Shown here piece after piece: positions 1 through 44,539 of a DNA stretch of 44,539 nucleotides. The DNA is from a virus, in the IMG/VR virus record IMGVR_UViG_3300020202_000114, positions 1-44,539 of that record; one strand, written 5' to 3'. A program made the translations under genes and the position numbers. Under the pieces are notes generated by a model that had not been told where the DNA came from, made no database searches, and was given only the letters and a program-made list of their open reading frames with translations. Every line of letters begins with the position of its first letter. Positions within the stretch are counted from its first letter, which is position 1.

Positions 1-99
1 TTCAGAATGTGCAAAGGACACGATGCTGACTGCTCTTGCGCTTCAAGGCTTGCTGATCGCGCCCTCACCTGGTTCCACGAACGGGAGAAGAGGAAATGA
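1..99 (+). CDS. C-terminal fragment of a small early protein (5' end missing)
   Basis: The frame is open from base 1 to a TGA at 97-99 and ends in ALTWFHEREKRK. The same 12-residue tail ends the 236-residue protein at 43496-44206, but the residues before it (CKGHDADCSCASRLADR) differ. This is therefore the tail of a different version of the gene at the same locus. The stop overlaps the ATG of the ASCH gene. Function is unknown. Confidence 0.55.
   Translation, partial: FRMCKGHDADCSCASRLADRALTWFHEREKRK
60..99 (+). repeat. 40-bp direct repeat, copy 1 (pair at 44167-44206)
   Basis: Forty identical bases encode the end of the upstream protein, the ribosome-binding sequence GGGAGAAGAGG and the overlapping ATGA. 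After it the two copies lead into different genes: ASCH here and a 77-codon gene at 44203. It marks the left border of an exchanged cassette. Confidence 0.85.
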
Positions 100-680
100 A
101 GGAACGCCCCATCTTATTCAGCGCCCCAATGGTCCGAGCCATCCTCGAAGGACGGAAGACGCAGACGCGGAGGGTTGTAAAAATATCGAATCCAGAAAAT
201 GCCATGCGGGTCGAGTTCTCATCGACGGATTTTGGCGTTTACCGATTTGACCTTTATTTTCCAACGCACGTCCGAAGCGAGACTTTTCCATGCCCCTACG
301 GCCAACCCGGAGATCGGCTTTGGGTGAGGGAGACTTGGCGTGACGGAATTTACGATGGTCCAATTTACCGTGCGGATGCTTGCAAAGTCACCGATGAACA
401 GCTTGAAGGGACTTGGAAGCCTTCAATTTTCATGCCCCGCTGGGCCTCCCGCATCACGCTCGAAATAACCGACGTGCGTGTGGAGAGGTTGCAGGAGATC
501 AGCGAAGAAGACGCAAAGGCGGAGGGGGTTCTCCGCTCTGGGCAAACCTTCAGACAAAGTTTCAATGATCTATGGGGAACCATCCACGCCGCCGACGGCC
601 CCAACGGATGGAGCGCTGATCCTTGGGTTTGGGTAATCGAATTTAAACAAATCGCACACACACGGGAGAAGAAGGGATGA
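96..680 (+). CDS. ASCH-domain protein
   Basis: This 194-residue protein matches the pattern of ASCH (PUA-like beta-barrel) proteins common in phages. It starts with KERPILFSAPMVRAILEGRK, then has QPGDRLWVRETW (about residues 69-80) and SIFMPRWASRITLEITDVRV, and ends in WVWVIEF. ASCH proteins are thought to bind RNA or modified nucleotides; no catalytic role is shown here. The start overlaps the previous stop (ATGA) behind GGGAGAAGAGG. Its last residues (AHTREKKG) are shared with the otherwise unrelated protein at 44203-44436. It occurs only on the alternative end branch, so it is probably a variable cassette. Confidence 0.85.
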   Translation: MKERPILFSAPMVRAILEGRKTQTRRVVKISNPENAMRVEFSSTDFGVYRFDLYFPTHVRSETFPCPYGQPGDRLWVRETWRDGIYDGPIYRADACKVTDEQLEGTWKPSIFMPRWASRITLEITDVRVERLQEISEEDAKAEGVLRSGQTFRQSFNDLWGTIHAADGPNGWSADPWVWVIEFKQIAHTREKKG

Positions 681-783
681 GTGAGCACCTTAAAAAGGAA
701 GTCATTCAAAACTACGAAGCTTACGGATGCGTCAAATGCCAGCGATGGCACTATGACGATGAAGACGTTTACTACGAGCATAT
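657..783 (+). repeat. 127-bp exact direct repeat, internal copy (pair at 44413-44539)
   Basis: These bases are identical to the last 127 bases of the window. One base before the match, A656 corresponds to G44412, and a few bases further back the sequences are unrelated. A length of exactly 127 is a common assembler k-mer, so this is best read as circular closure onto an internal position, not as a biological terminal repeat. Confidence 0.85.
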
Positions 784-877
784 CTGGAATCAATCCAAGC
801 ATGGAATAAGGACAGTATCGAGGGAAGAGAGGTTTATCAATTTTCTTTCGGATATGCGCGATGAGCTATCAAAGTAA
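677..877 (+). CDS. Small early protein with one CxxC
   Basis: Sixty-six residues, acidic and aromatic, with one Cys pair (CVKC, residues 18-21) and an HYDDEDVYYEH stretch. It follows AGAAGAAGGG and overlaps the previous stop (ATGA). One Cys pair could ligate metal only together with nearby His or by dimerisation. I do not recognise the family. Confidence 0.7.
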   Translation: MSEHLKKEVIQNYEAYGCVKCQRWHYDDEDVYYEHIWNQSKHGIRTVSREERFINFLSDMRDELSK

Positions 878-1055
878 AAGAGACGACCTATCCAATTTCA
901 AGGCCCGTGGAGGTGATAAGGGTAAGACCATAAACCTCCAAACTCCTCAGTTCTGCGATGAGTGCCGGAACGAAACAAGAACGAAGGTTTATCTGGACCA
1001 TTACGGATTCGGAAGTCATTTAAAGGTCTGCATTATTTGTGAGATTCCAAGATGA
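861..1055 (+). CDS. Small CxxC-pair protein
   Basis: Sixty-four residues with two Cys pairs, CDEC and CIIC near the C-terminus, the pattern of a zinc ribbon. It overlaps the upstream gene by 17 bases with no strong ribosome-binding site, which suggests translational coupling. The target is unknown. Confidence 0.6.
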   Translation: MSYQSKRDDLSNFKARGGDKGKTINLQTPQFCDECRNETRTKVYLDHYGFGSHLKVCIICEIPR

Positions 1056-1091
1056 CCGCGCACACCACGCATGGAAAGGAGAGGGGAATAG

Positions 1092-1313
1092 ATGGCTAGG
1101 AAATACGAGCTTAAGAGTGAATATTGCCCTCCTATAGATACATGCCGGGTTATTCAGGTGATTGAGACCTGTACGGAAAGGCGTGGCTCTGGAGTGGAAG
1201 GTGACCCAATTCGTGTTGTAACGACATACTGGACTTTAGACGGCAAGTTTATATGTGAAATTGATCCGTGCATGAAAAAGAATGATCGCGCGCACTCAAA
1301 GGAGAGGGGATGA
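1092..1313 (+). CDS. Hypothetical early protein
   Basis: Seventy-three residues starting at an ATG about 10 bases after GGAGAGGGG. It has scattered cysteines but no clear CxxC pairs. The C-terminal codons (RAHSKERG) run through a CGCGCAC motif and the next gene's ribosome-binding site. The upstream 36-base gap also carries CGCGCAC. Family not recognised. Confidence 0.65.
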   Translation: MARKYELKSEYCPPIDTCRVIQVIETCTERRGSGVEGDPIRVVTTYWTLDGKFICEIDPCMKKNDRAHSKERG

Positions 1314-1729
1314 GACCTTTAAAGGTTAGAGCTTGGAACAACGGAAAGATGCTTTATCCGGATGGAATTTTTTTTAATCCGGTAAAACCATCGCATATTC
1401 GCCTTTATTTTGGAAATCCAGAACCAGGCGTTGAATATCGAAGTGCCCCATACAACTTAAATGAACCCACAATTATCATGCAATTCACCGGCCTCCACGA
1501 CAAGAACGGTAAGGAAATCTACGAAGGGGATATTCTTGGGTGCGGTGGGAAGAAGCCCTACGAATACATCCATGAAGTAAAACTGATCGTGAATGACTCG
1601 AATATCCGTTACGACTACGGTTACTCACACGAGCACAACTTCCCGGCACCGCATTGGGTAGAAATCATCGGGAATATTCACGAAAACCCAGAACTTCTCG
1701 CGCACCCAACCCCAAAGGAGCGGAGATGA
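1310..1729 (+). CDS. YopX-family protein
   Basis: The 139 residues show the YopX pattern: KVRAWNNGKM at the start, IMQFTGLHDKNGKEIYEGDI in the middle (about residues 56-75) and VEIIGNIHENPELL near the end. YopX proteins are widespread in phages and prophages and their role is unknown. The start overlaps the previous stop (ATGA) after AAAGGAGAGGGG. The last codons again carry CGCGCAC followed by the next gene's ribosome-binding site. Confidence 0.9.
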   Translation: MRPLKVRAWNNGKMLYPDGIFFNPVKPSHIRLYFGNPEPGVEYRSAPYNLNEPTIIMQFTGLHDKNGKEIYEGDILGCGGKKPYEYIHEVKLIVNDSNIRYDYGYSHEHNFPAPHWVEIIGNIHENPELLAHPTPKERR

Positions 1730-1884: not shown

Positions 1885-2684
1885 CGACATGCACTAAATG
1901 TGGAAGCTCAGATGACTTCCTCCATACTTGCGTTAAATGTAAGCCGAATATTTACGATGAGCTTGCCGCCCTGAGGGAGGAGTGCGCGAGGTTGAAGAAG
2001 GCCAATGAGCTGTATGAGAAGCAGCTCACGGACATTGGTTATGAAGCGGCGTTTCCAAAGAACATCATTTTCTACGATGACGGCACAGAGCGAGAGATTG
2101 AATGGGTTACTGGCGACGGCCCTGAATACAATAGCCCTTCTTGTTGGGTGACAACGGATAAGTCTCAGGAACTTTCAGAACTACGCGCACAGCTCGAAGC
2201 TGAGAAAGATGACAACGAAATATTGGCTCAGATTAGCGAGATTCTTGTTGGTTATCGGGAAGGAAGCCATAAAGACATTCTCGCTGGACTTAGAGAACTG
2301 AAGGAAGAAAATCAACGTCTCAACGATCTAAACCGTCAAGAAGTCTCAGAGAAAATCGAGCCATTCAAGAAAGCGTGGGAAGAAGAACTCTCCACCCACC
2401 GCGTACTCATCTCAAGGCTTACGCAGGCGTTGGAGAAGATAGCGAAGGATTACGAAGAGTCTGGTTGCATGGATTGCACGACTGGACGCGAAGCAAAGGA
2501 CGCCCTCCAATCCTCGCGCACATCTCACCTACTGGAAAGAGATAAGGCTAAGGACGAAGTAATTGAAGCGGCGAGAAAGCTTATGGGAGATAAGGGGCCA
2601 GCGCATGATATTGAGTATTCGTCTGAATATTCAGCGCTTGACGACGCCCTCCACCGACTCGACGGGTGCCGGGAGGGGAAGTGA
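1881..2684 (+). CDS. Coiled-coil protein with N-terminal Cys pairs
   Basis: 267 residues. The N-terminus carries CTKC and CVKC pairs (a probable zinc ribbon). It is followed by long charged helices rich in Glu, Lys and Leu (about residues 25-55, 105-170 and 175-250), consistent with coiled coil. AAAGGAGCGGAG precedes the ATG, and an in-frame ATG 33 bases upstream has no such site. It may be a scaffold or adaptor protein; function is unknown. Confidence 0.7.
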   Translation: MTTCTKCGSSDDFLHTCVKCKPNIYDELAALREECARLKKANELYEKQLTDIGYEAAFPKNIIFYDDGTEREIEWVTGDGPEYNSPSCWVTTDKSQELSELRAQLEAEKDDNEILAQISEILVGYREGSHKDILAGLRELKEENQRLNDLNRQEVSEKIEPFKKAWEEELSTHRVLISRLTQALEKIAKDYEESGCMDCTTGREAKDALQSSRTSHLLERDKAKDEVIEAARKLMGDKGPAHDIEYSSEYSALDDALHRLDGCREGK

Positions 2685-2914
2685 GCGCACACCCTGATTT
2701 TAAGAAGAGAGCGGAAGAAACGATGCAGGCTTACATCGACTCTCACGGAGACAAAGGAGAAATAGCCAAAGCCCTCCTCCAAGCCTATAGAGAAGGTCTT
2801 GAGTGCGCGCAAAAGATTGCTGAGAAAGAATCCAAAAGCCCATGTGAGGCGATTTGCCATTGCGCTGAGGAAGTCGCGCACACCATCCGCTCAGAATCCG
2901 CACGACTAGGATAG
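2681..2914 (+). CDS. Small helical early protein
   Basis: About 77 residues from a GTG that overlaps the previous stop (GTGA) just after GGGAGGGG. A GTG 15 bases upstream is an alternative start. The body is predicted helical (FKKRAEETMQAYIDSH, ALLQAYREGLECAQKIAEKE). Two GTGCGCG/CGCGCAC sites lie inside it. Family not recognised. Confidence 0.6.
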   Translation: MSAHPDFKKRAEETMQAYIDSHGDKGEIAKALLQAYREGLECAQKIAEKESKSPCEAICHCAEEVAHTIRSESARLG

Positions 2915-2918
2915 TCTG

Positions 2919-3373: not shown

Positions 3374-3576
3374 AAAAGAAATCGTTTAAGAATCTGCTAA
3401 AGAGCATCGATCAGGCGAGGGGAGGGCAGGTGAAGAAAAAGAAATGGAAAGGCTCAATCAAGCTCGACGCAACCAAGATAGGTCAAGAAGTGATTCGGAT
3501 TGTACTCGAAGAGATTTTAAAGAGACCTGTGGTTATTCATAGAAGGAAAGTTAAGACGAAGGTGGGTGCGCGATGA
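3370..3576 (+). CDS. Basic small protein
   Basis: Sixty-eight residues, very Lys-rich (KKKSFKNLLK, VKKKKWKG, RRKVKTKVG), starting at a GTG that overlaps the previous stop. The charge suggests nucleic-acid binding. The last codons contain GTGCGCG, which lies directly against the ATG of the next gene. Confidence 0.6.
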   Translation: MKKKSFKNLLKSIDQARGGQVKKKKWKGSIKLDATKIGQEVIRIVLEEILKRPVVIHRRKVKTKVGAR

Positions 3577-3662
3577 ATAAGTGGGTATTTGAAAGGATGT
3601 TTTTCGTGTTGGCGGTAGTTTACTGCGTCATTGGTGCGTTTATTTATTTTACGCACTCATGA
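3573..3662 (+). CDS. 29-residue single-pass membrane protein
   Basis: MNKWVFERMFFVLAVVYCVI and GAFIYFTHS form one hydrophobic segment (about residues 9-26). The ATG follows GTGCGCG without a gap and overlaps the previous stop (ATGA). The stop overlaps the next start. The tight overlaps on both sides support real translation. Confidence 0.6.
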   Translation: MNKWVFERMFFVLAVVYCVIGAFIYFTHS

Positions 3663-3799
3663 CGAAGTTCTTGGTGTGCGCGAAGTGCGGGGATCATTTG
3701 GTCGAGAACATCTTCACGAATTCTCGCGCACCCAAAGAACTCTGTGACAGGTGCTATAAAATAAAATCAGAAGAGAATATAGCGGAACTAGAGGGGTGA
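3659..3799 (+). CDS. 46-residue zinc-ribbon microprotein
   Basis: Two Cys pairs, CAKC (residues 7-10) and CDRC (29-32), 18 residues apart, form a standard four-Cys zinc ribbon. It overlaps both neighbours. Both orientations of the GTGCGCG motif occur within its codons. Confidence 0.65.
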   Translation: MTKFLVCAKCGDHLVENIFTNSRAPKELCDRCYKIKSEENIAELEG

Positions 3800-4261: not shown

Positions 4262-4333
4262 ATGCTAAACAAATTTAGATGGTTCTTGATTCGACTTCTT
4301 TTTCACCTTATTCCTAAAGAGAAAAAGCGCTAA
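4262..4333 (+). CDS. 23-residue basic hydrophobic peptide
   Basis: The ATG follows the previous TAA directly. The product MLNKFRWFLIRLLFHLIPKE plus KKR is amphipathic and basic. It is the last rightward gene and overlaps the stop of the leftward phosphoesterase gene tail to tail by four bases. Small size keeps confidence low. Confidence 0.4.
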   Translation: MLNKFRWFLIRLLFHLIPKEKKR

Positions 4334-5073
4334 CGGTACTCAACTCCCGCCTGAGTAATAAACCTGCCTTCGGGACTTACTAATTGGATTCCAAAAGAGA
4401 AATTCCCCGAATCCTTAATATTCGCATAGAAAAATCCGTTACACCATTTCGTAGACTTGCCGTGTAGGTAAGGCGCCTGGAGCTTCGCGTAGCAGGGGAC
4501 TTGAACGGCTACATGCCTTTCTTTGGCGTCTATAAACGAGAAATTGGGCGCAATCTCGGCTGAGTGGAAGTGCCCGAAGACAACGTTTCTTTGGCAGCGC
4601 ATGACCGCTTGAGTGGCTGGGTGAGAGGTGCCGAACTGGTCGCCGTGGCAGAAGTAGAGCTTGCCTAGTTTGTAGAAGGCTCCGTACGGCTGCATTTCAA
4701 CGCCATACTTCTTAAAGTCGCAGAGAACATCCACGGTGATCTTTTTCATTTGCGGGTACTTCTGCGAGAACTGCACCGCCCACTGCTCGTGGTTGCCTTG
4801 GACGTAAACAAATTTAGCCTTTGGCATGGCTTTTCTGAGTTGGGCAAGTTGTGCGCGGAAACACGCGGCATCAGCTTCTAACTCCATCCGAACTTGATTA
4901 AAGCCTTTGTTTTTAAAGTTCTCGTCGTTCCAGTGGGAAATACAGCCGAAGTCTACGTTGTCGCCACCGAAACCAAAAACATTTATTTTCTGGTCAACGC
5001 AATACTTGATGAGAGGTTCGAGTGGGATGTTGTGGGGACTGTGTGAATCGTAAAGCCAGACGGTTTTTATCAA
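4330..5073 (-). CDS. Calcineurin-like metallophosphoesterase
   Basis: 247 residues with the metal-ligand blocks of the family in order: DSH (9-11), GGDN (36-39), GNHEQW (93-98), HGD (143-145) and GHFH (167-170). Such enzymes use two metal ions to hydrolyse phosphomono- or phosphodiesters, including nucleic acids and nucleotides. The substrate cannot be told from sequence. It is the last gene of the leftward operon and overlaps its upstream neighbour by four bases (ATGA). Confidence 0.9.
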   Translation of the reverse strand: MIKTVWLYDSHSPHNIPLEPLIKYCVDQKINVFGFGGDNVDFGCISHWNDENFKNKGFNQVRMELEADAACFRAQLAQLRKAMPKAKFVYVQGNHEQWAVQFSQKYPQMKKITVDVLCDFKKYGVEMQPYGAFYKLGKLYFCHGDQFGTSHPATQAVMRCQRNVVFGHFHSAEIAPNFSFIDAKERHVAVQVPCYAKLQAPYLHGKSTKWCNGFFYANIKDSGNFSFGIQLVSPEGRFITQAGVEYR

Positions 5074-5219
5074 AGGTCTCGGATCAGCTTTTTAATCCTT
5101 TTGAACTTATCGCGCACCTCGTGAGACTTCATTGATTCGTATATCTGATTATCCATATCGTTTAACAAATCAATGATCTCGTAGGTTTTGATGCGTTTCT
5201 TCTTCGACTCCTCTACCAT
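5070..5219 (-). CDS. Small charged protein
   Basis: About 49 residues (VEESKKKRIKTYEIIDLL near the N-terminus), helical and basic. GGAGACAAG lies upstream of this ATG with a rather long spacer. An earlier ATG at 5276 would add 19 residues and overlap the upstream membrane gene but has no clear ribosome-binding site. Function unknown. Confidence 0.55.
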   Translation of the reverse strand: MVEESKKKRIKTYEIIDLLNDMDNQIYESMKSHEVRDKFKRIKKLIRDL

Positions 5220-5253
5220 GGGTGCGCTTGTCTCCAAAAGTGTCTGTACGGGG

Positions 5254-5706
5254 CTAGAAACGCAAGAGATTGGCATAATAGAACGTTCGTTCGATAAAGA
5301 GTGCGCCGATTAAGAAGCCTTGGACGATTTCGACATACTTCCAGTCTAGGCGGTACTCATTCTCACCGTTATTGGACCAGTAGGTGCCGAGTAGCCACCA
5401 AAGTCCTAGCACCCAAGCCCATACGCCTGACATGGCAATAAAGCAGGCGGTTTGAGCCATTCCGTAGCATGCCACGTCGTCCCAATCGCGCTCTTCCACC
5501 TCGTCGAGGTTAAAGTGGAGGATCGCACTCAGAATAACCATCTCAAACCAAAAGCCTGTCAGGAGTGCGCCGATAAGTGGTAGGACGTAACGCCTTAGCC
5601 ACTTATGGCCCTTCTTAAACGGCCAAATGTCTCCTCCTCCGGCACGATATAGATAGCCAGAGATTGGAATGACTAGCCAATATTGAAGAGATTGATAAGG
5701 CTCCAT
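5254..5706 (-). CDS. Polytopic membrane protein
   Basis: 150 residues with about four hydrophobic segments: near residues 38-62 (YVLPLIGALLTGFWFEMVIL), 80-100 (ACYGMAQTACFIAMSGVWAW), 100-112 and 128-148. Many Trp residues sit at the interfaces. It lies among other small membrane genes at the end of the late operon, where a holin or membrane-remodelling role would fit, but no holin family is recognisable. Confidence 0.7.
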   Translation of the reverse strand: MEPYQSLQYWLVIPISGYLYRAGGGDIWPFKKGHKWLRRYVLPLIGALLTGFWFEMVILSAILHFNLDEVEERDWDDVACYGMAQTACFIAMSGVWAWVLGLWWLLGTYWSNNGENEYRLDWKYVEIVQGFLIGALFIERTFYYANLLRF

Positions 5707-6325: not shown

Positions 6326-6470
6326 CTGCTTTCACTTCCTCTTTTGATTTAACGGCTACTTGGTTATTGATTACTTGTAGGTCTTGCTGCAACTTTTGAA
6401 TCATTGCGAGCGTGTCGTAGGCTGCGGCTTTCAGTTCTACAACGCTCATTTCATCGAGCTTTTTAGTCAT
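6312..6470 (-). CDS. 52-residue helical protein
   Basis: MTKKLDEMSVVELKAAAYDT begins a largely helical peptide with Gln-rich heptads (IQKLQQDLQVINNQVAVK). The start overlaps the upstream stop as TAATG and its 3' end overlaps the next gene by 14 bases. Similar short helical proteins often sit next to fibre genes in phages. Confidence 0.6.
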   Translation of the reverse strand: MTKKLDEMSVVELKAAAYDTLAMIQKLQQDLQVINNQVAVKSKEEVKAVGES

Positions 6471-6754
6471 TAATCAGGGCTCCCATTTACGGTTCCGGTT
6501 AGTTTTCCGTCTGCGATAAGCTTATTTAGAACCCTCTTATGCAGAGAATTAGTCGAAAGGTTGGCTTTGTTTAGAAGCACCATAAGATCGGTTGCTTCTT
6601 GGCCCGTGTAATAAAATTCTCTGTACACACTCCCGTCACTTAACCTGATAAAAATAAGAGAACCTTCCCAATCAAACACAAGTTTCCTAACTTTGAAGAA
6701 TGTTGAGGTGCGCGGGTCTACTGCGAGAGGCGTAGTTAAATCAATCTGTTCCAT
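6470..6754 (-). CDS. Small late protein downstream of the fibre
   Basis: 94 residues with a beta-rich first half (FFKVRKLVFDWEGSLIFIRL, GSVYREFYYTG) and a helical second half. It follows the large fibre gene by eight bases and is coupled to the next gene by TAATG. It may be a fibre accessory or assembly protein; family not recognised. Confidence 0.65.
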   Translation of the reverse strand: MEQIDLTTPLAVDPRTSTFFKVRKLVFDWEGSLIFIRLSDGSVYREFYYTGQEATDLMVLLNKANLSTNSLHKRVLNKLIADGKLTGTVNGSPD

Positions 6755-11983: not shown

Positions 11984-12064
11984 GTGTTAAGTGGATTATT
12001 AATCATTATCGGAATAGCATTAATAGCAAGGGCATTGGGGTTTGACATAGACCTATTTAAATAG
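11984..12064 (+). CDS. 26-residue membrane peptide
   Basis: From a GTG after AAAGGGGGGT: MLSGLLIIIGIALIARALGF plus DIDLFK, essentially one hydrophobic helix. Its last four codons lie in the palindrome CTATTTAAATAG, which also encodes the last four codons of the converging gene. Very small, so moderate confidence only. Confidence 0.45.
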   Translation: MLSGLLIIIGIALIARALGFDIDLFK

Positions 12065-34605: not shown

Positions 34606-35088
34606 CTACATGTCCATTAACTCTCTGACCTTGTCCCATTTCTGTTCTGCGGATAGCTGGGTAATGTCGATCTTGTTCAGAATGAGCGTATTATTGGTGA
34701 TTTGCTGCGCTTGAGAGCTGGAATCTCCCTCTAATTCCTTCCTTTGGGCCTCAATGATGGCTACAAGTTCCTTTGCATCCTTCGGAGCGATTGTTTTTGG
34801 TGCCTTCTCCTCGCAGAGCTTGAGCCGTCTCCATCTCCTTGTCCTCTCAGCTTCACGATCTATCATAACCAAGTCTTTATGTTTCTTAACTATTTGGCTT
34901 ACTCTGACTTCTGAGATTCCGAACTCTTGAGCGATAGTCTTTAGGGTTGCGCCTTGCTTATACCTATCTAATAGCTTCTGATTTCTTTCGGAAGGGGCTT
35001 TAAAGGTTATTACTTTAGGGTGCGCGAGATTGGGTTGTTTTGAGGCTGAATTTTCTTCGTAGCTTACTTCGTCTGGATTGTTGTCCAT
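34606..35088 (-). CDS. Putative terminase small subunit (HTH)
   Basis: 160 residues. The HTH is at about residues 37-70 (LLDRYKQGATLKTIAQEFGI, SEVRVSQIVKKH). A basic linker (RTRRWRRLKL) and an oligomerisation-type helix (AKELVAIIEAQRKELEG) follow, and the C-terminus is WDKVRELMDM. The order DNA-binding, oligomerisation, C-terminal tail and the position at the head of the packaging genes fit TerS. A transcriptional regulator is the alternative. The ATG has no ribosome-binding site and lies six bases after a TAGAAT, so the message could be leaderless. Confidence 0.65.
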   Translation of the reverse strand: MDNNPDEVSYEENSASKQPNLAHPKVITFKAPSERNQKLLDRYKQGATLKTIAQEFGISEVRVSQIVKKHKDLVMIDREAERTRRWRRLKLCEEKAPKTIAPKDAKELVAIIEAQRKELEGDSSSQAQQITNNTLILNKIDITQLSAEQKWDKVRELMDM

Positions 35089-35179: not shown

Positions 35180-35208
35180 TTGACATACATCACTTGTACG
35201 TATATACT
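35180..35208 (+). promoter_or_regulatory. Strong sigma70-type early promoter
   Basis: TTGACA, exactly 17 bases, TATACT. The predicted transcript start is at or within two bases of the ATG at 35217, so the first message is effectively leaderless. It drives the rightward early operon. Confidence 0.85.
35197..35207 (+). promoter_or_regulatory. Operator-like element, half 1 (inverted partner at 35379-35389)
   Basis: TACGTATATAC overlaps the -10 box. Its exact reverse complement GTATATACGTA lies at 35379-35389, just downstream of the first gene. Inverted copies flanking a small ribbon-helix-helix gene suggest repressor sites, perhaps with looping. Confidence 0.6.
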
Positions 35209-35216
35209 CTCAATGT

Positions 35217-35357
35217 ATGAAGAAGAAATTGACACTTACTGTTGACGAGCAAGTGATTATCGACGCGAAGAAAAAAGCTCTCGATGATCGAAAGGAACTA
35301 AGCGAAGTGACCGAGAAGTTATATCAAGCGTATGTGAGGGGAGAAGTAAAGCTGTAG
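35217..35357 (+). CDS. 46-residue ribbon-helix-helix regulator
   Basis: MKKKLTLTVDEQVIIDAKKK then ALDDRKELSEVTEKLYQAYV shows the fold plainly: a basic beta strand (KLTLTVDE), helix A, a turn and helix B. Such Arc/MetJ-type proteins act as dimers with the paired strand in the DNA major groove. It is the first early gene, with a promoter-overlapping operator-like site and no ribosome-binding site. Autoregulation and control of the early or late switch are likely (inference). Confidence 0.7.
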   Translation: MKKKLTLTVDEQVIIDAKKKALDDRKELSEVTEKLYQAYVRGEVKL

Positions 35358-35404
35358 ATTTTTTTTAAGTTAGTGGGTGTATATACGTATAAGGAGTGCG
35401 CGAG

Positions 35405-35464: not shown

Positions 35465-35492
35465 TTGTGCGCGAAAAAGGGGAGGGAAGACG

Positions 35493-35687
35493 GTGAGAAT
35501 TAAGTTTGATTGCGGCCATGAAGCGGAAGTAAGTGAGACGAGCGCTAAGCTTCACTCTCTGCGTAAAAGCTTCAGCTTGTGTGCCGCTTGCTCGCCGGTC
35601 GCCGGTTACGAAGGTTTTAAGACTGCGGATAGACGATATAGAGCCGCAGTAAATAGGGCTAAGCGTAAGGGGAGGGAAGAGGAATGA
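35493..35687 (+). CDS. Small Cys protein
   Basis: 64 residues from a GTG after GGGGAGGGAAG. CGH, CAAC and a basic C-terminus (RYRAAVNRAKRKGREEE). Possible zinc-binding nucleic-acid protein. The stop overlaps the next start. Confidence 0.6.
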   Translation: MRIKFDCGHEAEVSETSAKLHSLRKSFSLCAACSPVAGYEGFKTADRRYRAAVNRAKRKGREEE

Positions 35688-35884
35688 TTATGAGTGCGCG
35701 TGAAGAATGGCGAGTGTCTGACACGAAACGCAAGCTTAATAACGGCTCTCCGCTTGGTACTTGGGTTGAGTTATGGAGAGACGGACAGCTTGTCGGCAAG
35801 CGCTTGGTTAACGCCGGGAAGCCTTCGGATATCGAATGGGCTAAGCGTGATATTCTCGAAGACCCGAAAGCGATAGACCTGTGA
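35684..35884 (+). CDS. Small early protein
   Basis: 66 residues with RVSDTKRKLNNGSPLGTWVE, LWRDGQLVGKRLV: beta strands followed by a helix. The ATG overlaps the previous stop; an ATG six bases later has better spacing to GAGG. Family not recognised. Confidence 0.6.
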   Translation: MIMSAREEWRVSDTKRKLNNGSPLGTWVELWRDGQLVGKRLVNAGKPSDIEWAKRDILEDPKAIDL

Positions 35885-35991
35885 CCGACATAGACAAGCT
35901 CGTCTATAGGTACTATCACGACCCTGTATTAAATGACTGGTCTGATTTGGTGTGCGCGTTGCGCGAACTGACCAGGAAAGGAGGAGCCTAA
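35881..35991 (+). CDS. 36-residue early peptide
   Basis: GTG overlapping the previous stop; VTDIDKLVYRYYHDPVLNDW then SDLVCALRELTRKGGA, helical. Its last codons supply GGAGG for the next gene. Translational coupling is likely. Confidence 0.5.
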   Translation: MTDIDKLVYRYYHDPVLNDWSDLVCALRELTRKGGA

Positions 35992-36296: not shown

Positions 36297-36527
36297 ATGG
36301 GTGCGCGAAAAGCTAAGGTTGGTTGTTCGGTGTGCCGCAGTAAGACATTTCTACCGCCATGCAATCTTCACGCCGCCGGGCCTTTATTCTACAAGGCGGC
36401 GAAGACTTGGCTAGCGCATTACGACGAGTTTGTGAAGCTTAAGGGGATTGGGGACGAGGCTGGAATAGCTGAGTTACGCCATGCAGTTGCAATCGCTGAG
36501 GGGAAAGAACAGCTATACAATGACTGA
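36297..36527 (+). CDS. Small Cys protein beginning in a GTGCGCG motif
   Basis: 76 residues. The start ATG is followed at once by GGTGCGCGA, so the motif encodes residues 2-4 (GAR). CSVC plus a third Cys and a His follow (CRSKTFLPPCNLH), then a helix. AGGGG lies seven bases upstream. Possible zinc finger. Confidence 0.6.
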   Translation: MGARKAKVGCSVCRSKTFLPPCNLHAAGPLFYKAAKTWLAHYDEFVKLKGIGDEAGIAELRHAVAIAEGKEQLYND

Positions 36528-36564: not shown

Positions 36565-36574
36565 GGGTGCGCGA

Positions 36575-36805
36575 ATGACTCTAAAAGATGATCTTCACAA
36601 CGTAACGAATAGATATATTACGAAGTCAAAAGAATCGAACGCGGTAAAGCTTCAGAACGTAAGCAACGCGCTATTAACCGAATTGTCATATACGATGGCA
36701 TTCACGGCGCACGAGCTAAACATGCCGCTCAAGAAGATCATCGAAATGCACGTTAAAGCTCTTAAGAAAACTACACCGTTTAAGTGCGGTGAGTGCGCGA
36801 AGTGA
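36575..36805 (+). CDS. Small helical early protein with C-terminal CxxC
   Basis: 76 residues, mostly helical (NAVKLQNVSNALLTELSYTM, AHELNMPLKKIIEMHVKALK), ending FKCGECAK. AGGGG and GTGCGCG directly precede the ATG. The final codons carry another GTGCGCG and overlap the next start. Confidence 0.6.
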   Translation: MTLKDDLHNVTNRYITKSKESNAVKLQNVSNALLTELSYTMAFTAHELNMPLKKIIEMHVKALKKTTPFKCGECAK

Positions 36806-36925: not shown

Positions 36926-37126
36926 GTGCGCGAAAAGCAATCGAGTAAAGAGAATTGGTACGATCAGTGCGCGAACCTGATCGCGAAGTATAGAAATAAG
37001 ACCGAAAGCGATATAAACGAGCATTTTGAAGTACTTAATCAGATATGCAAAATCCTTTCTAAAAATGGATTCCTTGATGATGATTGGTGGTGTGAAAACG
37101 AAAGATATCAAGCACACGACAAATGA
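36926..37126 (+). CDS. Small early protein starting within the GTGCGCG motif
   Basis: 66 residues. The start codon is the GTG of GTGCGCGAAAAG, after AAGGGG. Helices (YDQCANLIAKYRNKTESDIN, FEVLNQICKILSKNGF) end in an acidic Trp pair. Function unknown. Confidence 0.6.
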   Translation: MREKQSSKENWYDQCANLIAKYRNKTESDINEHFEVLNQICKILSKNGFLDDDWWCENERYQAHDK

Positions 37127-37308: not shown

Positions 37309-37525
37309 GGAGTGCCTGACTTGCGAGTGTAAGGAGCCAATCCGTATTTGTGCGTTTTGCAAGCAAGTTATTGAAAAGAACCATAAAAGAGAGTATTTCC
37401 AGATGAGGGGCCGCAACCATTATTTCTTTCATCAGCCGTGCTGGAAGCGAATAATAAGTTTGGTCTACCACGACAGAAAGCGATTTTTTAAAACAAATAA
37501 ACTACGCACAAATGAATTCCGCTAA
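37295..37525 (+). CDS. Zinc-finger-like early protein
   Basis: 76 residues with CLTCEC, CAFCKQ and HQPC (residues 7-49), followed by a basic tail. Two Cys pairs plus a His/Cys pair resemble a treble-clef or PARP-type finger arrangement in outline only. Confidence 0.6.
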   Translation: MRIHKECLTCECKEPIRICAFCKQVIEKNHKREYFQMRGRNHYFFHQPCWKRIISLVYHDRKRFFKTNKLRTNEFR

Positions 37526-37697
37526 ACAACACGCAACCTATATCCTAGAGAACGGAAAAGAAGTGGTGTGCGGGACATGCTACTGCGAGAGAAGGCAGAA
37601 TCATTTTAGGTTGTGCGCGGACTGTAAGAAGCCGGTGATTGGCACATGGAGATTGAATAGGCTCGGTGAATATACTTGCTGCGGAGACACAAATTGA
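37512..37697 (+). CDS. Zinc-ribbon early protein
   Basis: 61 residues: CGTCYC, CADC and CC near the end, with basic linkers. Probably binds zinc. Its 3' end overlaps the next start (TTGA). Confidence 0.6.
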   Translation: MNSAKQHATYILENGKEVVCGTCYCERRQNHFRLCADCKKPVIGTWRLNRLGEYTCCGDTN

Positions 37698-38104
37698 TAC
37701 GTGCTTGCGCCTGGTGCAATAAAGAAATAGGGAGCAAGGAACCACTAGAGGACAACTCCATCACGCATACCATATGTGAGGAGTGCCGAAAAAGAATAGA
37801 AAAGGAACGCGATAACATTTATACTCGAGTGGTTGAAAGTGAAAACCTCGCTCTTCATAGACCGCCATGTGAAGGATTTGGGGAAGAAACGCGCTATCGA
37901 TCTTCGGAAAAGCTTCTCGTCTTACGTCGAATTTTTAATATCGAAGGACGTCAAGAAGCCGAAGAAAAAATAACCCATTCCAACCATTCAAATTTTTATC
38001 CATCATTCGGTAATTACCGACTTTCTATTTTCTTAAAGATAAAGCTTGACACCTTTTTTAGGATTGTTAAGAATGCGTGGTTACGTTTAAGACCGCTTAG
38101 CTAA
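37694..38104 (+). CDS. Zinc-ribbon protein with doubtful C-terminal extension
   Basis: From a TTG seven bases after GGAG. MIRACAWCNKEIGSKEPLED and ICEECRKRIEKER give two Cys pairs (CAWC, CEEC), a sound zinc ribbon over about 45 residues. The frame stays open for 90 more codons, but that part looks unlike protein, overlaps a better gene in another frame (37833-37973) and covers a promoter and palindrome. A lost stop or frameshift is possible. Confidence 0.5.
   Translation: MIRACAWCNKEIGSKEPLEDNSITHTICEECRKRIEKERDNIYTRVVESENLALHRPPCEGFGEETRYRSSEKLLVLRRIFNIEGRQEAEEKITHSNHSNFYPSFGNYRLSIFLKIKLDTFFRIVKNAWLRLRPLS
37833..37973 (+). CDS. Second 46-residue ribbon-helix-helix protein
   Basis: TTG start (or GTG six bases later, with GAGTGG upstream): MKVKTSLFIDRHVKDLGKKR then AIDLRKSFSSYVEFLISKDV and a Lys/Pro tail. 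The strand KTSLFIDR, helix A and helix B with the polar turn match the fold, and the length equals that of the 35217 protein. It lies in a different frame from the preceding ORF, just upstream of a palindrome and promoter. Confidence 0.6.
   Translation: MKVKTSLFIDRHVKDLGKKRAIDLRKSFSSYVEFLISKDVKKPKKK
38007..38020. promoter_or_regulatory. Perfect 14-bp palindrome, operator-like
   Basis: TCGGTAATTACCGA is self-complementary over all 14 bases. It lies 26 bases upstream of a TTGACA box and between two DNA-binding protein genes, as an operator would. Confidence 0.65.
38046..38074 (+). promoter_or_regulatory. Promoter for the HTH regulator
   Basis: TTGACA followed, at 17 bases, by AAGAAT (TAAGAA at 16). 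The -35 is perfect, the -10 weak, so activation or repression is plausible. Confidence 0.55.
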
Positions 38105-38111
38105 GTCCGCA

Positions 38112-38199
38112 ATTGTTAGAGTGCGCGTTTTAAATCGGCCTATATCTAATTAGGCGCAAACTAACAATAAAAAAGAGGCGGTTTAGACGATCTGAACCG
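38112..38199 (+). promoter_or_regulatory. Structured 5' leader of the HTH gene
   Basis: ATTGTTAG (38112-38119) can pair with CTAACAAT (38161-38168), with TGCGC/GCGCA inside; the TGCGC strand is part of a GTGCGCG motif. Next, CGGTTTAGA (38179-38187) pairs with TCTGAACCG (38191-38199), ending six bases before the ATG. The second hairpin could limit ribosome access. Confidence 0.5.
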
Positions 38200-38205
38200 G
38201 ATGCG

Positions 38206-38559
38206 ATGTTATTAGTAAATGGTGATACGGTAAAAGCGTGGTTGAAATCGATCAACAAAAATCAACAGTGGCTCGCTGATATGTACGGGTGCAACAAATC
38301 GTACGTGAGTCAGATTCTAAATAATGGGTGCGCTGTCTCGGGGAATTTCGTCGGATTTCTCATGCACATCACGCACATGGATTTTTGGCAACTCTTTCAA
38401 TATTTCAATGAACCGGATTGCCGAAAATTTTACGGAAAAGAAGTTTCGATGAACGGACAGATCATGCCGAGAGAGACGTATTATAAGCTCATTGAATCGC
38501 GCATTAAGCATAGAAAAATACTTGATAAATATGTTGACAAGGTCCGTGAAACGGTTTAA
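38206..38559 (+). CDS. HTH regulator (XRE-like)
   Basis: 117 residues. VKAWLKSINKNQQWLADMYG and CNKSYVSQILNNGCAVSGNF (residues 9-48) form a Cro/CI-type HTH with the recognition helix around NKSYVSQIL. The C-terminal half is helical and may dimerise. Promoter, palindrome and leader hairpins upstream suggest regulated expression. It may control the early genes or the lytic enzyme that follows. Confidence 0.7.
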   Translation: MLLVNGDTVKAWLKSINKNQQWLADMYGCNKSYVSQILNNGCAVSGNFVGFLMHITHMDFWQLFQYFNEPDCRKFYGKEVSMNGQIMPRETYYKLIESRIKHRKILDKYVDKVRETV

Positions 38560-39185: not shown

Positions 39186-39379
39186 GACTCAAAAACTCGG
39201 ACGTTATTTTCCGCATGGTTTGTAAGCACTGTCACGCTCAGTTTTGGTTTGCGCTTGGTGATCGGTATTCCTGGGATCACGCAAAGGCCGCTTACTACTC
39301 GTTTAAGCTTGATTTCCACTCACACAAGATGGATTGCCTGAATAAAAAAATGGAGTCCATCTTAAATGTCAATTCGTAA
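39182..39379 (+). CDS. Small Cys/His protein
   Basis: 65 residues with CKHC (about 14-17), then HSHKMDC near the C-terminus, a plausible C2HC zinc site. ATGA overlap with the lytic enzyme stop. Function unknown. Confidence 0.6.
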   Translation: MRLKNSDVIFRMVCKHCHAQFWFALGDRYSWDHAKAAYYSFKLDFHSHKMDCLNKKMESILNVNS

Positions 39380-39560
39380 CCTTTTCATGGACCGGGAATT
39401 TAAAAACGATTCCACGTTCTTTACTTGGTTCTACGACAACGAAGAGGATTTGAAGAACGATTACCTAGACGAGTATTGGTACAAGGACATCGATCTAAAG
39501 GATAAGGCTGAATATAGAAAATTCTTTAACTGGTGTCAGGATTGGTATTTCTGTGAGTGA
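39366..39560 (+). CDS. Small acidic aromatic protein
   Basis: 64 residues, very rich in Asp, Glu, Trp, Tyr and Phe (FFTWFYDNEEDLKNDYLDEY). Such acidic aromatic microproteins can mimic DNA or bind host enzymes (for example anti-restriction proteins), but this is only a composition-based idea. Confidence 0.55.
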   Translation: MSIRNLFMDREFKNDSTFFTWFYDNEEDLKNDYLDEYWYKDIDLKDKAEYRKFFNWCQDWYFCE

Positions 39561-39639
39561 GTGCGCGATCTGCATGCGTTTAACGTATGAAGTTATTTGC
39601 TGGGACTGTATTCGGGAGGGCTTGCGCCAATGGGGTTAG
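39553..39639 (+). CDS. 28-residue Cys-pair peptide
   Basis: From GTG inside the previous gene's end: CAIC (4-7) and CWDC (16-19) make a minimal zinc ribbon. GTGCGCG encodes its Cys-Ala. Overlaps the next gene by ten bases. Confidence 0.45.
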   Translation: MSECAICMRLTYEVICWDCIREGLRQWG

Positions 39640-40445
39640 TGGTTGAACCGATTCTTCAGTTTTTAAGTAAGGACGATTCAACGATTGATGATTGGATTGC
39701 GCGGCAGTATGGCTATCTCGCTGAATATTCCATGAAGCGCCAGTTCTCGAAAAAAGAAAACGGTCCTGTCTTAAGGTTCTCGGGGTGCGGCAAACGCGCA
39801 CGACAGATTGCCTATGAGTATCACGGCTTCCAGGCTAACGGTAAAACGCAAGATTCTCGCTCTAAGATTGTTTTCCTCTACGGCGATCTTCTTGAAGCTC
39901 TGATTGTCTCCCTCGCCAAAGCCGCCGGGGTTCAGATAACCGCCTGCGGTTTAGACCAAAAAAAGATCTCGCTCGAAATTGAGGGCGTTCAGATTAACGG
40001 GCACCCAGACGGACTCATTATTACCAATCCCATTCATACGTTTGAGTGCAAATCCATGTCCTCTTTCGGATATGGAGAGTTTGAGCGCGGCAATATCTCG
40101 CATGAATACTTGGTCCAAGTGAATCTCGGGATGGAAGCTCTGGGGCTTGATAGATGCGTCTTCGTTGCGATTGAAAAAGAGTCTGGGGTTATGAGTGAGC
40201 GCATCGTTCATAAGGACGAATCCATTATTGAGTGGGTAAGGCAGAATGTATCAAAAGTAATACATTCGACACCTGACAACCTTCCCGAGCGTTGCTTCAC
40301 TCCGAACGAAAAGGGCTTCTACCCGTGGCAGTGCGTCTATTGCAAGTTCTACAAAACCTGTCTCGTGGAACCCGGTCTCGCAAAGATTGAAGTCGTTAAA
40401 AACGCTAACAAATTAAAAGCCATTCAAGTGGAGGCCGCACTCTAA
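39630..40445 (+). CDS. Cas4/RecB-like PD-(D/E)XK nuclease
   Basis: 271 residues from an ATG nine bases after GGGAGGG. FSGCGKRARQIAYEY supplies the first Cys. GHPDGLI (about 132-138) and TFECKSM (about 145-151) are the PD-(D/E)XK core, followed by the QVNLGMEALG helix. CVYCKFYKTC supplies three more cysteines, so an iron-sulphur cluster as in Cas4 and AddB is expected. The likely role is end resection for recombination. No Cas1/Cas2 or CRISPR array is present. Confidence 0.85.
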   Translation: MGLVVEPILQFLSKDDSTIDDWIARQYGYLAEYSMKRQFSKKENGPVLRFSGCGKRARQIAYEYHGFQANGKTQDSRSKIVFLYGDLLEALIVSLAKAAGVQITACGLDQKKISLEIEGVQINGHPDGLIITNPIHTFECKSMSSFGYGEFERGNISHEYLVQVNLGMEALGLDRCVFVAIEKESGVMSERIVHKDESIIEWVRQNVSKVIHSTPDNLPERCFTPNEKGFYPWQCVYCKFYKTCLVEPGLAKIEVVKNANKLKAIQVEAAL

Positions 40446-40513: not shown

Positions 40514-40586
40514 AATCGACGCTTTAATCCGCGCACTCGAAATCTTATACCCACAACAAGCACGAATCGTAGAGGAGAAAAAATGA
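40503..40586 (+). CDS. 27-residue helical peptide
   Basis: MKNEIDALIRALEILYPQQA then RIVEEKK, one amphipathic helix. Its last codons provide GAGGAG for the next gene, with an ATGA overlap. Confidence 0.4.
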   Translation: MKNEIDALIRALEILYPQQARIVEEKK

Positions 40587-41625: not shown

Positions 41626-41634
41626 GAAGTACCT

Positions 41635-41727: not shown

Positions 41728-42085
41728 CCGGATGGTTGAATTATCGCGTGAGATTTATGAGTTTTGCGAAGACATTGAAAAAGAGAAACCGAAAGAACGA
41801 ATGATCGACTGGTGGTGCGTGAGTTATAAGGAAAAATTTGGGCGCGACTACATTGTGACGAGCTACGACAAGTCCTGCGGCATCCTAAAAACTTTAAGAA
41901 CAAAGCTTGGCGAAGATGGTCTAAAAGACCTTTGTAAGAAGTATTTCGACTATGACGATGAGTGGGTGAAGAAACAAGCCCATAGCATCGAAGCGCTCCC
42001 TGCCGTAGTCAACCGAATCCGCGCACACCAAGCCGCAAGCTCACTAGAAAAGTTCTACAAAAAGGGGGTAAACCATGCTTCCTAA
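41696..42085 (+). CDS. Helical early protein, possibly replication-related
   Basis: 129 residues: LKLRRIADRMVELSREIYEF helix, then DWWCVSYKEKFGRDYIVTSY with KTLRTKLGEDGLKDLCKKYF, outlining a small winged-helix-like fold. This arrangement recalls N-terminal domains of phage replication proteins, but there is no recognised motif. It overlaps the next gene by 11 bases. Confidence 0.55.
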   Translation: MDPLKLRRIADRMVELSREIYEFCEDIEKEKPKERMIDWWCVSYKEKFGRDYIVTSYDKSCGILKTLRTKLGEDGLKDLCKKYFDYDDEWVKKQAHSIEALPAVVNRIRAHQAASSLEKFYKKGVNHAS

Positions 42086-42512
42086 CCCAGATAGTCCGGT
42101 AGCAAGGATCTGTCTCGCGCTCTACTACGACTTTATGGGGAAAAAAATATCTAAAAAAGAATTTGTCGTAGGTCTAGCTTACGCCCAAGTTAGAGAAGAG
42201 TGCTTACTGGAAATGCGCCCGGAGAGCGAGCCGCTCCCCACCGAAGAAATCATCTCCATCTTAAACGCCAGTCCCAGAGAAAAAGAAAAGATCGATTGGA
42301 GAGCGGAGCCTATTTTTTCGTACTTAAACAACCTTCACCGAGTCAGGAATAAGAACAAGGCAACAAAAGAAAGGCTGGAATGGGCTAAACAACGAATACC
42401 GCTCTCAGATGCAGAAACGCACAAGAAGATAGACGAACACCTAAGCATGTTCGGAGTCCGAATCGCGCACCACGAATCTTACTTAGATAAATCCATAAAG
42501 GAGGTCGCTTGA
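42075..42512 (+). CDS. Helical early protein
   Basis: 145 residues, all helical (PVARICLALYYDFMGKKISK, EEIISILNASPREKEKIDWR, FSYLNNLHRVRNKNKATKER). AAGGGGG precedes the ATG. Partnered with the previous gene by overlap; the pair might form a replication or packaging-regulation complex (inference). Confidence 0.6.
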   Translation: MLPNPDSPVARICLALYYDFMGKKISKKEFVVGLAYAQVREECLLEMRPESEPLPTEEIISILNASPREKEKIDWRAEPIFSYLNNLHRVRNKNKATKERLEWAKQRIPLSDAETHKKIDEHLSMFGVRIAHHESYLDKSIKEVA

Positions 42513-42840: not shown

Positions 42841-42915
42841 ATGATCTACGTCTTCTCCTGGCTTCTGGTGTGCGCGGTTATTCTTATGTGGTGGAAAGGA
42901 AAGTCGCGCACATGA
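42841..42915 (+). CDS. 24-residue membrane peptide
   Basis: MIYVFSWLLVCAVILMWWKG then KSRT. One hydrophobic helix. Its codons carry GTGCGCG and, near the end, CGCGCAC. Overlaps the next gene by four bases. Confidence 0.45.
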   Translation: MIYVFSWLLVCAVILMWWKGKSRT

Positions 42916-43334
42916 AAAAGAAAAAGGTAAAGAAGCTCTCCCAGACCAAGCTTTTAAGAAAATACGAACCAGAGTTAAGAGACATCATCATTAAAAGAGA
43001 CGGGAATAAGTGCGTGATAGCTGGGTACAGGCATAAGTGTAGTGCGCGGCTTGTGGCTGATCATAGGCCTTCGGGAAGGAAGAACCATAGCACCTTCCTA
43101 GATCCGCGCAATCTTTCCACGGTCTGCGCCACGGCCAATATGCTCGCCCAATGGGACGATTTTATTAGTGCGGCAATCAGGGTTGAGGTGATGCAAAGAG
43201 AGGGTGCCGGAATCATCGAGGAATTAGAGAAGCTTTCGCGCACTCCTAAAAAGTGGGATGAGCTTTCAATTCGCGCACACCTGGACAACTGTAAACGTTA
43301 TTTTTTGAAGAATAAATCTGGGTGCCCAGAATGA
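42912..43334 (+). CDS. NinG/HNH-like recombination protein
   Basis: 140 residues from an ATG with AAGGAAAG eight bases upstream. IIIKRDGNKCVIAGYRHKCS, ARLVADHRPSGRKNHSTFLD, PRNLSTVC follow the beta-beta-alpha-metal order with DH and the Asn of HNH nucleases. The C-terminus (MQREGAGIIEELEKLSRTPK, then CKRYF) is close to lambda NinG (Rap). NinG-type proteins resolve or process recombination intermediates. The last His of canonical HNH is not obvious. Confidence 0.7.
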   Translation: MKKKKVKKLSQTKLLRKYEPELRDIIIKRDGNKCVIAGYRHKCSARLVADHRPSGRKNHSTFLDPRNLSTVCATANMLAQWDDFISAAIRVEVMQREGAGIIEELEKLSRTPKKWDELSIRAHLDNCKRYFLKNKSGCPE

Positions 43335-43495
43335 CTGAATTTAGTGAATTCGAGAAGAAACTAGCCGTCAAGATTGCAAATTTCATCTTATTCGCTTTTG
43401 TAGTCTCGTCTCTTTATATCGTTTTTGGATTCGAGAAGACGGTTATAGCTGTACTTCCTGTCCTGCTTTTAAACGCAATATCTATCTTTGATTGA
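43331..43495 (+). CDS. 54-residue double-pass membrane protein
   Basis: Charged N-terminus (TEFSEFEKKLAVK), then two helices, IANFILFAFVVSSLYIVFG and VIAVLPVLLLNAISIF. ATGA overlap with the previous gene. Function unknown. Confidence 0.55.
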   Translation: MTEFSEFEKKLAVKIANFILFAFVVSSLYIVFGFEKTVIAVLPVLLLNAISIFD

Positions 43496-44206
43496 GTGAC
43501 CGCACCTATGAATAAAGAAAAAGATTGCTCGATCTGTAACCCCAAACCAGAAGCTCCCGAGGCACCTATGACCAAATACCACGAATTAACGGAAAGGATT
43601 TGGAGATCAGATGACGATACTTACAATTTTAAGCATCGTCTTGACTCCCTCATCCGAGAATACATTGAGGGGTGCGCGGAGGAAATAAGAGAAAGTTACG
43701 GACTACAAGCTGGAAGTCAACTTGTCGGTAGAAGATACCTTCATCAAATCCTCGGTCTCTCAACAGAATCTTTAAGCGCCGCAGGCACGCCTTGTGAGAA
43801 TTGTGATAGAAGAGAGCCCGGTGCTTCTATTTTCTTAACAGGAAGCAAAGATATTAAACAATCTAAGTGCATTAAATGCGGCAAAAATTATTCTGACATC
43901 TTTAAACCACAAGGAGCCAATCCAGTGAGTGAGAAAGAGTGGTGCTCGCACTACAAATTGAATGAGAGAACGAACTGGTACGAAAGAGAAGCCAATGTTG
44001 GAAGTGGCGTATTTAATTGTGTTGTCCATCATCAGGATAAGTTTTGTGCAGTTTGCGGAAAAGAAAAGCCGCGCACCCCAACCGAACAAGAGGAGCTTGC
44101 AGCTAAGTTTAGAGAGTTTCTGCCTTACGCTGGAAGTGACATGAACCTAATGAGCCTTGCTGAAATCGCCCTCACCTGGTTCCACGAACGGGAGAAGAGG
44201 AAATGA
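43496..44206 (+). CDS. Multi-zinc-finger early protein
   Basis: 236 residues from GTG; ATG at 43508 or at 43568 (GAGG upstream) are alternatives. Cys pairs: CSIC, CENC, CIKC and CAVC, with CSHY in between, around helical segments (KHRLDSLIREYIEGCAEEIR, EQEELAAKFREFL). Probably binds several zinc ions. Its last 12 residues are shared with the fragment at the left end of the window. Confidence 0.6.
   Translation: MTAPMNKEKDCSICNPKPEAPEAPMTKYHELTERIWRSDDDTYNFKHRLDSLIREYIEGCAEEIRESYGLQAGSQLVGRRYLHQILGLSTESLSAAGTPCENCDRREPGASIFLTGSKDIKQSKCIKCGKNYSDIFKPQGANPVSEKEWCSHYKLNERTNWYEREANVGSGVFNCVVHHQDKFCAVCGKEKPRTPTEQEELAAKFREFLPYAGSDMNLMSLAEIALTWFHEREKRK
44167..44206 (+). repeat. 40-bp direct repeat, copy 2 (pair at 60-99)
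   Basis: Identical to 60-99, ending in the stop of the multi-zinc protein and the start of the 77-codon gene. Left border of the variable cassette. Confidence 0.85.
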
Positions 44207-44436
44207 GCGAAGACGTTTGCTTTCTAATCACAGTCTTAAATGAAGATCGACTTCTGAGGTGCGCGTTAAAGGTTAAACGCGATTCTTTGAGCGGTGACGT
44301 AATTGATTACCCAATGGAACCAGAAAATCGAGAGCAGCTTTATAAGCTCTTACCGCTGCACGTTCAGTCGTGCGGCCCAATTGTCGATGTTGAGGGAATC
44401 TTTGAGGTCGCGCACACACGGGAGAAGAAGGGATGA
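44203..44436 (+). CDS. Small early protein, alternative cassette gene
   Basis: 77 residues: VCFLITVLNEDRLLRCALKV, VIDYPMEPENREQLYKLLPL, GPIVDVEGIFEVAHTREKKG. A small alpha/beta fold of unknown role. It occupies the position that the ASCH gene holds on the other branch, and the two share only start-site bases and the last residues. Confidence 0.6.
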   Translation: MSEDVCFLITVLNEDRLLRCALKVKRDSLSGDVIDYPMEPENREQLYKLLPLHVQSCGPIVDVEGIFEVAHTREKKG

Positions 44437-44539
44437 GTGAGCACCTTAAAAAGGAAGTCATTCAAAACTACGAAGCTTACGGATGCGTCAAATGCCAGCG
44501 ATGGCACTATGACGATGAAGACGTTTACTACGAGCATAT
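44413..44539 (+). repeat. 127-bp exact direct repeat, terminal copy
   Basis: Identical to 657-783; see that entry. It shows how the sequence closes into a circle. Confidence 0.85.
44433..44539 (+). CDS. 5' part of the gene at 677-877 (repeat copy)
   Basis: The first 35 codons of the same small CxxC protein, cut off by the window end. Not an extra gene in the circular molecule. Confidence 0.8.
   Translation, partial: MSEHLKKEVIQNYEAYGCVKCQRWHYDDEDVYYEH

Follow-up and report, generated by a model that had tools for sequence, protein, structure and literature searches.

The window analysed here, the whole 44,539-nucleotide stretch of the IMG/VR record IMGVR_UViG_3300020202_000114, belongs to a tailed phage whose terminase, portal-region and capsid genes run leftwards from ~35 kb and whose many small early genes run rightwards from 35.2 kb. 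In all of its modules the seven-base word GTGCGCG, which is short, asymmetric and non-palindromic, is repeated, and its distribution and possible role are described below. The ends of the window overlap (46-104 with 44153-44211 at 90% identity, 652-783 with 44408-44539 at 99%) as two alleles of one locus, so that the genome, ~43.8 kb in length, is either a circle or circularly permuted. The alleles differ in gene content, one carrying an ASCH-like gene (96-680) and the other a 77-amino-acid open reading frame (ORF; 44203-44436), which suggests cassette exchange in the population.

An exact count on both strands gave 54 copies of GTGCGCG, 33 on the plus and 21 on the minus strand. These are the figures of the initial annotation, which had also described the word as non-palindromic and spread over all modules, with about five copies expected and a roughly tenfold excess; all of this was borne out. 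One hundred dinucleotide shuffles of the window yielded 4.38 ± 2.04 copies with a maximum of 9, and Markov models of orders 0 to 4 predicted 3.9, 4.3, 4.7, 7.7 and 12.7. The word ranked first by z among the 7-mers of the window (z 21.7 at order 2, 54 against 4.7), with an enrichment of ~11-fold and a density of 1.2/kb. The order-5 expectation rose to 39, but most of this figure is owed to the copies of the word themselves, and the Markov-corrected count, proposed earlier as a check, stays far from expectation. When synonymous codons were redealt within the late and within the early genes, proteins and codon usage being kept, the late genes were expected to hold 2.1 ± 1.4 copies against 18 observed (8-9 times the codon-usage level) and the early genes 2.8 ± 1.5 against 29. 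Since the count falls to about two and three in this way, the word is selected as DNA within coding sequence and does not arise from the proteins or from the usage of codons. GTGCACG and GTGCGCA, each one base from the word, were absent from the window, and the latter includes TGCGCA, a palindrome that is avoided altogether; the reversed and the complemented forms of the word were at expectation.

Six-base palindromes were strongly avoided over the whole window, with no copies of TGCGCA (16.6 expected), GAGCTC (12.2), CCGCGG (9.5), CGATCG (9.0), CGGCCG (8.1) and others, a sign that the host may have several restriction systems. As a cause of the enrichment this was rejected: many such palindromes are avoided, yet their avoidance does not raise a non-palindromic word 11-fold. 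A methylation target, one of the roles listed in the initial annotation, was also set aside, no methyltransferase having turned up in the protein families searched, a search that was not exhaustive and did not take in every ORF of the window.

Related contigs, ~30 in number, were gathered by terminase and capsid searches. Enrichment of GTGCGCG was found in one phage only, IMGVR_UViG_3300021057_000017 (hereafter G008), with 23 copies against 3.9 expected; contig G024 is a fragment of this phage (100% identical). The end of G008 overlaps its own start, and it too is circular or circularly permuted. Its late-gene DNA is ~70% identical to that of the window. By eye, three site contexts are apparently common to both phages, namely in terS, in 35881-35991 and at the start of 36297-36527, while most late sites of the window have no counterpart in G008. 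Individual sites therefore turn over, as is also seen at 44409-44415, where one allele of the overlapping locus has the word and the other misses it by one base. The comparison with relatives proposed earlier was thus positive for one diverged phage and negative for most of the others, in which the top dispersed words reached a z of only ~5-7 (order 3).

It is scarcely credible that composition or codon usage, motifs in the proteins or inherited homology produced the word incidentally. The expectation for a GC-rich word does rise somewhat with Markov order, and the three contexts apparently shared with G008 would fit inheritance. However, neither the codon and dinucleotide shuffles nor the order-4 model can account for the count, the shuffles rule out the first three causes, the reversed and complemented words are not in excess, nearly all other family members lack the enrichment, and pure common ancestry was rejected because most sites do not lie at homologous places in G008.

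Alignments of the capsid and terminase against 84,980 GTDB genomes, made in search of the host, found no relative. Queries with a helix-turn-helix (HTH) protein, an exonuclease and a metallophosphatase in viral contigs gave no further carrier of the word, and none of the phages with the replication protein of G008 carries it. Similar-looking words in loci L093, L114, L115, L118 and L127 were rejected as tandem or clustered repeats. Two unrelated phages hold dispersed words of their own, CAGGCGG in L107 (9 against 0.7) and TAGACGG in L090 (10 against 1.0), possibly Chi-like words of other hosts. A weaker genome-specific word, CGATGTAG, is enriched and dispersed in the relatives G007 (L032-L033; 8 against 0.5) and G006 (L030-L031; 8 against 0.4).

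With gene starts hand-curated from ORF lists, 47 of the 54 sites lay inside genes, including all 18 sites of the late region. In the leftmost part of the window, sites were located at 1057-1063 (-) between 861-1055 and 1092-1313; at 1289-1295 (-), 19 bases upstream of the start at 1310; at 1699-1705 (-), upstream of the start at 1723; at 1982-1988 (+), 2184-2190 (-) and 2515-2521 (-) in 1848-2684; at 2803-2809 (+) in 2666-2914; at 2875-2881 (-), 42 bases upstream of the start at 2919; at 3566-3572 (+), directly before the ATG at 3573; and at 3676-3682 (+) and 3725-3731 (-) in 3659-3799. The series continues with 4851-4857 (+), antisense in the metallophosphoesterase-like gene 4330-5073, 5111-5117 (-) in 5070-5276, 6708-6714 (+) in 6470-6754, 10179-10185 (+) and 10261-10267 (-) in 9871-10464, and 13251-13257 (-) in 12053-13585. 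Four sites are antisense in 16896-19070 (17312-17318, 17623-17629, 17995-18001 and 18334-18340, all +), and one each in 19070-20086 (19405-19411, +), 21497-22486 (22036-22042, +) and 25202-26539 (26430-26436, +). The major capsid gene (27056-28006) has a site in sense orientation at 27499-27505 (-), 29989-32151 has two in antisense (31691-31697 and 31812-31818, both +), the terminase large subunit gene has one at 33824-33830 (-), and the terS-like gene (34606-35088) has one in antisense at 35020-35026 (+), a site being present in the terS-like gene of G008 as well.

To the right of these, sites were found at 35396-35402 (+), between a Shine-Dalgarno (SD)-like AAGGAG and the ATG at 35404; at 35467-35473 (+), 24 bases upstream of the start at 35493; at 35694-35700 (+), just inside the gene starting at 35684; at 35952-35958 (+) in 35881-35991, kept in the G008 homologue; at 36301-36307 (+), at the start of 36297-36527, with a similar start (ATGGGTGCGCG) in G008; at 36567-36573 (+), between an SD-like AGGGG and the ATG at 36575; at 36793-36799 (+), at the 3' end of 36575-36805 and adjoining the probable GTG start at 36804; at 36926-36932 (+), overlapping the GTG start of 36926-37126; at 36967-36973 (+) in the same gene; at 37613-37619 (+) in 37512-37697; at 38121-38127 (+), in the gap upstream of the HTH gene 38206-38559 (+); and at 39561-39567 (+), between 39366-39560 and the ATG at 39574. 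Further sites lie at 39795-39801 (-) in the Cas4/RecE-like exonuclease gene 39597-40445 (+); at 40530-40536 (-), 51 bases upstream of the start at 40583; at 42020-42026 (-) and 42464-42470 (-), upstream of the starts at 42075 and 42509; at 42870-42876 (+), overlapping the GTG start of an HNH gene (42870-43334, +) whose product is weakly NinG/Rap-like and has a homologue in G008; at 42905-42911 (-), 43042-43048 (+) and 43237-43243 (-) within that gene; at 43272-43278 (-), 48 bases upstream of the start at 43322; at 43672-43678 (+) and 44070-44076 (-) in 43496-44206; at 44259-44265 (+) in 44203-44436; and at the polymorphic position 44409-44415 (-), whose other allele lies near 653.

Some other elements were noted in the right-early module. 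A sigma-70 consensus-like promoter (TTGACA-17-TATACT, 35180-35208) precedes the rightward early genes, the first of which (35217-35357) encodes an Arc-like/DUF6364 ribbon-helix-helix protein; a similar 46-amino-acid protein is encoded at 37833-37973. An imperfect inverted repeat (38104-38206, TTGTTAGAGTGCGC ... GGCGCAAACTAACAA) surrounds the site at 38121 upstream of the HTH gene and may be a terminator or an operator.

The early region is denser in sites, with 36 in ~14 kb against 18 in ~30 kb of late genes. Early sites also lean weakly to gene starts, 18 of the 36 falling between -60 and +40 relative to a start (background 0.31, p 0.015), a lean that is missing from the late sites (1 of 18). 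All sites from 35.2 to 39.6 kb are sense, and several of them directly adjoin a start codon or an SD-like sequence, as would be expected of a start-associated, translation-linked element like the start-associated sequences (SAS) of cluster K phages. We consider such an element very improbable. The sites are not confined to the positions immediately upstream of starts and occur in both orientations; 29 of the 54 run antisense to the gene start closest to them, most of the 18 late-gene sites are far from starts, and an element acting on mRNA would not persist on the antisense strand.

Orientation is not random, the word keeping to one strand over long stretches of the genome. Of the 24 sites between 17.3 and 39.6 kb, 22 read on the plus strand, against 11 of the remaining 30 (permutation p 0.003), and the word keeps its strand at 35.1 kb, where transcription flips. 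Because this one-strand stretch spans the reversal, the word is read in sense throughout the right-early module, whereas the sites of most late genes are antisense (13 antisense, 5 sense). The polarity of G008 mirrors that of the window, with p 0.003 when enriched variants are included and 0.063 for the 7-mer alone. We estimate that base skew accounts for part of the polarity but not for all of it. Polarity over large domains regardless of the direction of transcription would suit a guide for replication, segregation or packaging other than Chi, such as a primase, translocase or motor signal. This is nevertheless improbable, as the polarity is lost in the left-early region and has no tie to a GC-skew switch, and as no known word that was tested matches. 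Those tested, none identical to GTGCGCG, were the Chi words of Escherichia coli, Haemophilus influenzae, Lactococcus lactis, Bacillus subtilis, Staphylococcus aureus and Pseudomonas syringae, HIP1, the Haemophilus uptake signal sequence, the Neisseria DNA uptake sequence and the FtsK orienting polar sequences; the Chi words other than that of E. coli, HIP1, the two uptake sequences and the orienting sequences show no enrichment in the window. The initial annotation had likewise seen no match to HIP1, uptake sequences or E. coli Chi. The L. lactis Chi, GCGCGTG, is GTGCGCG reversed but not complemented, and was rejected, being at expectation.

Alignment of the 54 copies extended the word to an asymmetric consensus of ~14 bases, TnWGGnGTGCGCGR, in which T is preferred at -6, A or T at -4, G or else T at -3 and G at -2, with C disfavoured at -1 and A or G preferred at +7. 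The flank pattern (A/G)GTGCGCGA of the initial annotation was right on the purines in so far as A stands at +7 in 31 of the 54 copies and A or G in 44, but position -1 is only 'not C' and the real upstream preferences lie elsewhere. The flank preference was seen on both strands, in early and late regions and against local base composition, G at -2 being the sole preference that weakens in late sites. Copies in G008 show the same upstream leanings, which are weaker around its variants GGGCGCG and GTGCGCC.

Such a consensus could mean that the word forms the core of a 14-base asymmetric site for a phage-encoded binder, perhaps the HTH protein (38206-38559), which at ~50 places would silence or tune early genes, much as happens at stoperators or at the C1 operators of phage P1. 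The recurrence of the flank leanings in G008, also around variant words, and the density and start association of early sites speak for this. Besides the structural genes, the window and G008 have in common a few genes that are missing in other relatives, among them those for the HTH protein (45%), the metallophosphoesterase-like protein (60%) and the NinG/Rap-like HNH protein (33%), and the HTH protein is the only putative DNA-binding regulator, besides the terS-like protein, found in both word-bearing phages; its presence with the word is a correlation seen in two genomes, which also share further early genes. The protein matches phage repressor families, and the best PDB matches to its AlphaFold model are XRE-type domains, all with E >0.005, so that the fold may be XRE-like. 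The model itself is of low confidence (pLDDT, the predicted local distance difference test, 63). XRE proteins usually bind palindromes as dimers, whereas the word is asymmetric. Furthermore, no exact site overlaps the early promoter at 35180-35208, and known regulator sets are mainly intergenic, as for 20 of 23 best-word sites in Bxb1 and 12 of 14 C1 operators, which in P1 lie outside long ORFs. Stoperator orientation follows transcription in L5 and Bxb1; here the sites are sense in the right-early module and mostly antisense in the late genes, all of the late ones being intragenic, so that neither intergenic or promoter placement nor orientation with transcription is the rule. A regulator of this kind is a serious rival, though less probable than the reading favoured below. 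Rather unlikely is a phage-encoded binder with more than 50 asymmetric sites, mostly codon-written on either strand, that would act genome-wide in silencing, packing or self-marking and not at promoters; no phage repressor set among those compared is built like this. If the word were a regulator site, it would belong to a many-site system unlike known repressors.

The reading that we favour, with a probability of about 45%, is that GTGCGCG is a Chi-like directional word read by a RecBCD- or AddAB-type nuclease of the host. In E. coli, Chi makes the nuclease that destroys DNA halt and turn to repair. Chi words are 5-8 bases long and differ between bacteria (PMC5959072), and phages dependent on host recombination over-represent Chi (PMC3784561). 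The word is over-represented beyond composition and codon usage, and it is dispersed through coding sequence and not tied to regulatory positions. Of the roles listed in the initial annotation, a functional DNA-level word in general is supported and a recombination signal has the best support from the comparison with P1, although it is not singled out and a regulator site is still a rival. Double-strand ends would be exposed at phage entry and during headful packaging, and the host nuclease would degrade from such an end until it met a correctly oriented word and would then switch to recombination. The switch may preserve the phage DNA and aid circularisation or repair; a phage with many words would survive better, so that selection would favour codons, and sequences at gene junctions, from which the word arises.

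Several observations weigh against a Chi-like role. Flank preference is strong, with chi-square values of 41, 38, 31, 19 and 17 at -2, -3, +7, -4 and -6, while the flanks of Chi in P1 show none above 9, and an extended consensus present on both strands and largely alike in early and late regions, which P1 Chi lacks, speaks for a binder; little flank preference, however, describes the Chi of E. coli as seen in P1 and may not define Chi elsewhere. G008 tolerates the enriched variants GGGCGCG and GTGCGCC, the early region is the denser one and its sites lean to gene starts, and among the relatives compared the HTH gene occurs only in the two word-bearing phages. The phage also carries an exonuclease gene of its own (39597-40445). 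Finally, the defining feature of Chi, recognition by the host enzyme and enrichment in the host genome, is here a prediction. The two readings differ in what they predict for host core genes, in which the word should be over-represented or not. Should the word prove Chi-like, the phage genome would disclose the repair signal of an uncultured host that is not itself available; thousands of metagenomic phages could then be screened for such words with this statistic, which would help to link them to hosts.

The statistic was also run on phages with understood words, where it recovered the stoperators of Bxb1 and D29, placed the SAS of Anaya among the highest-ranking words, and in P1 picked out Chi as well as the C1 operators. 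The regulator words reached z values of ~9-16 and lay mostly outside genes. From the 7-mer to the 9-mer, z drops in the window and climbs in Bxb1 and D29. Like the stoperators of cluster A phages (Bxb1, D29, TipsytheTRex), the sites of the window are asymmetric, repeated genome-wide and accompanied by phage-specific variants. Those of TipsytheTRex have a 13-base consensus in 26 copies, mainly intergenic and oriented with transcription (PMC9283540), unlike the mostly intragenic sites described here, whose orientation is independent of transcription. The C1 operators of P1 are likewise asymmetric, scattered and in both orientations, but they are 17 bases long and situated at promoters. Like the sites of the window, the SAS of cluster K are asymmetric repeats found near early-region starts; they are 13 bases long and almost without exception immediately precede a start in a single orientation (PMC3203893), in contrast to the many antisense and intragenic sites found here.

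The closest likeness is to Chi (GCTGGTGG) in P1, which has 50 copies against 4.5 expected (z 20.3, 31 plus and 19 minus), mostly in long ORFs and on both strands (26 sense, 17 antisense). Both are short asymmetric words with ~50 copies and ~11-fold enrichment, and a Chi-like role is favoured because P1 Chi matches the word of the window in count, fold, length and placement. P1 is a pac/headful phage with terminal redundancy, and the phage of the window may package in the same way. The two differ in the word and its exact length, in density (0.53/kb in P1) and in the flank preference that is absent from P1 Chi, for which reason GTGCGCG is called Chi-like and not Chi.

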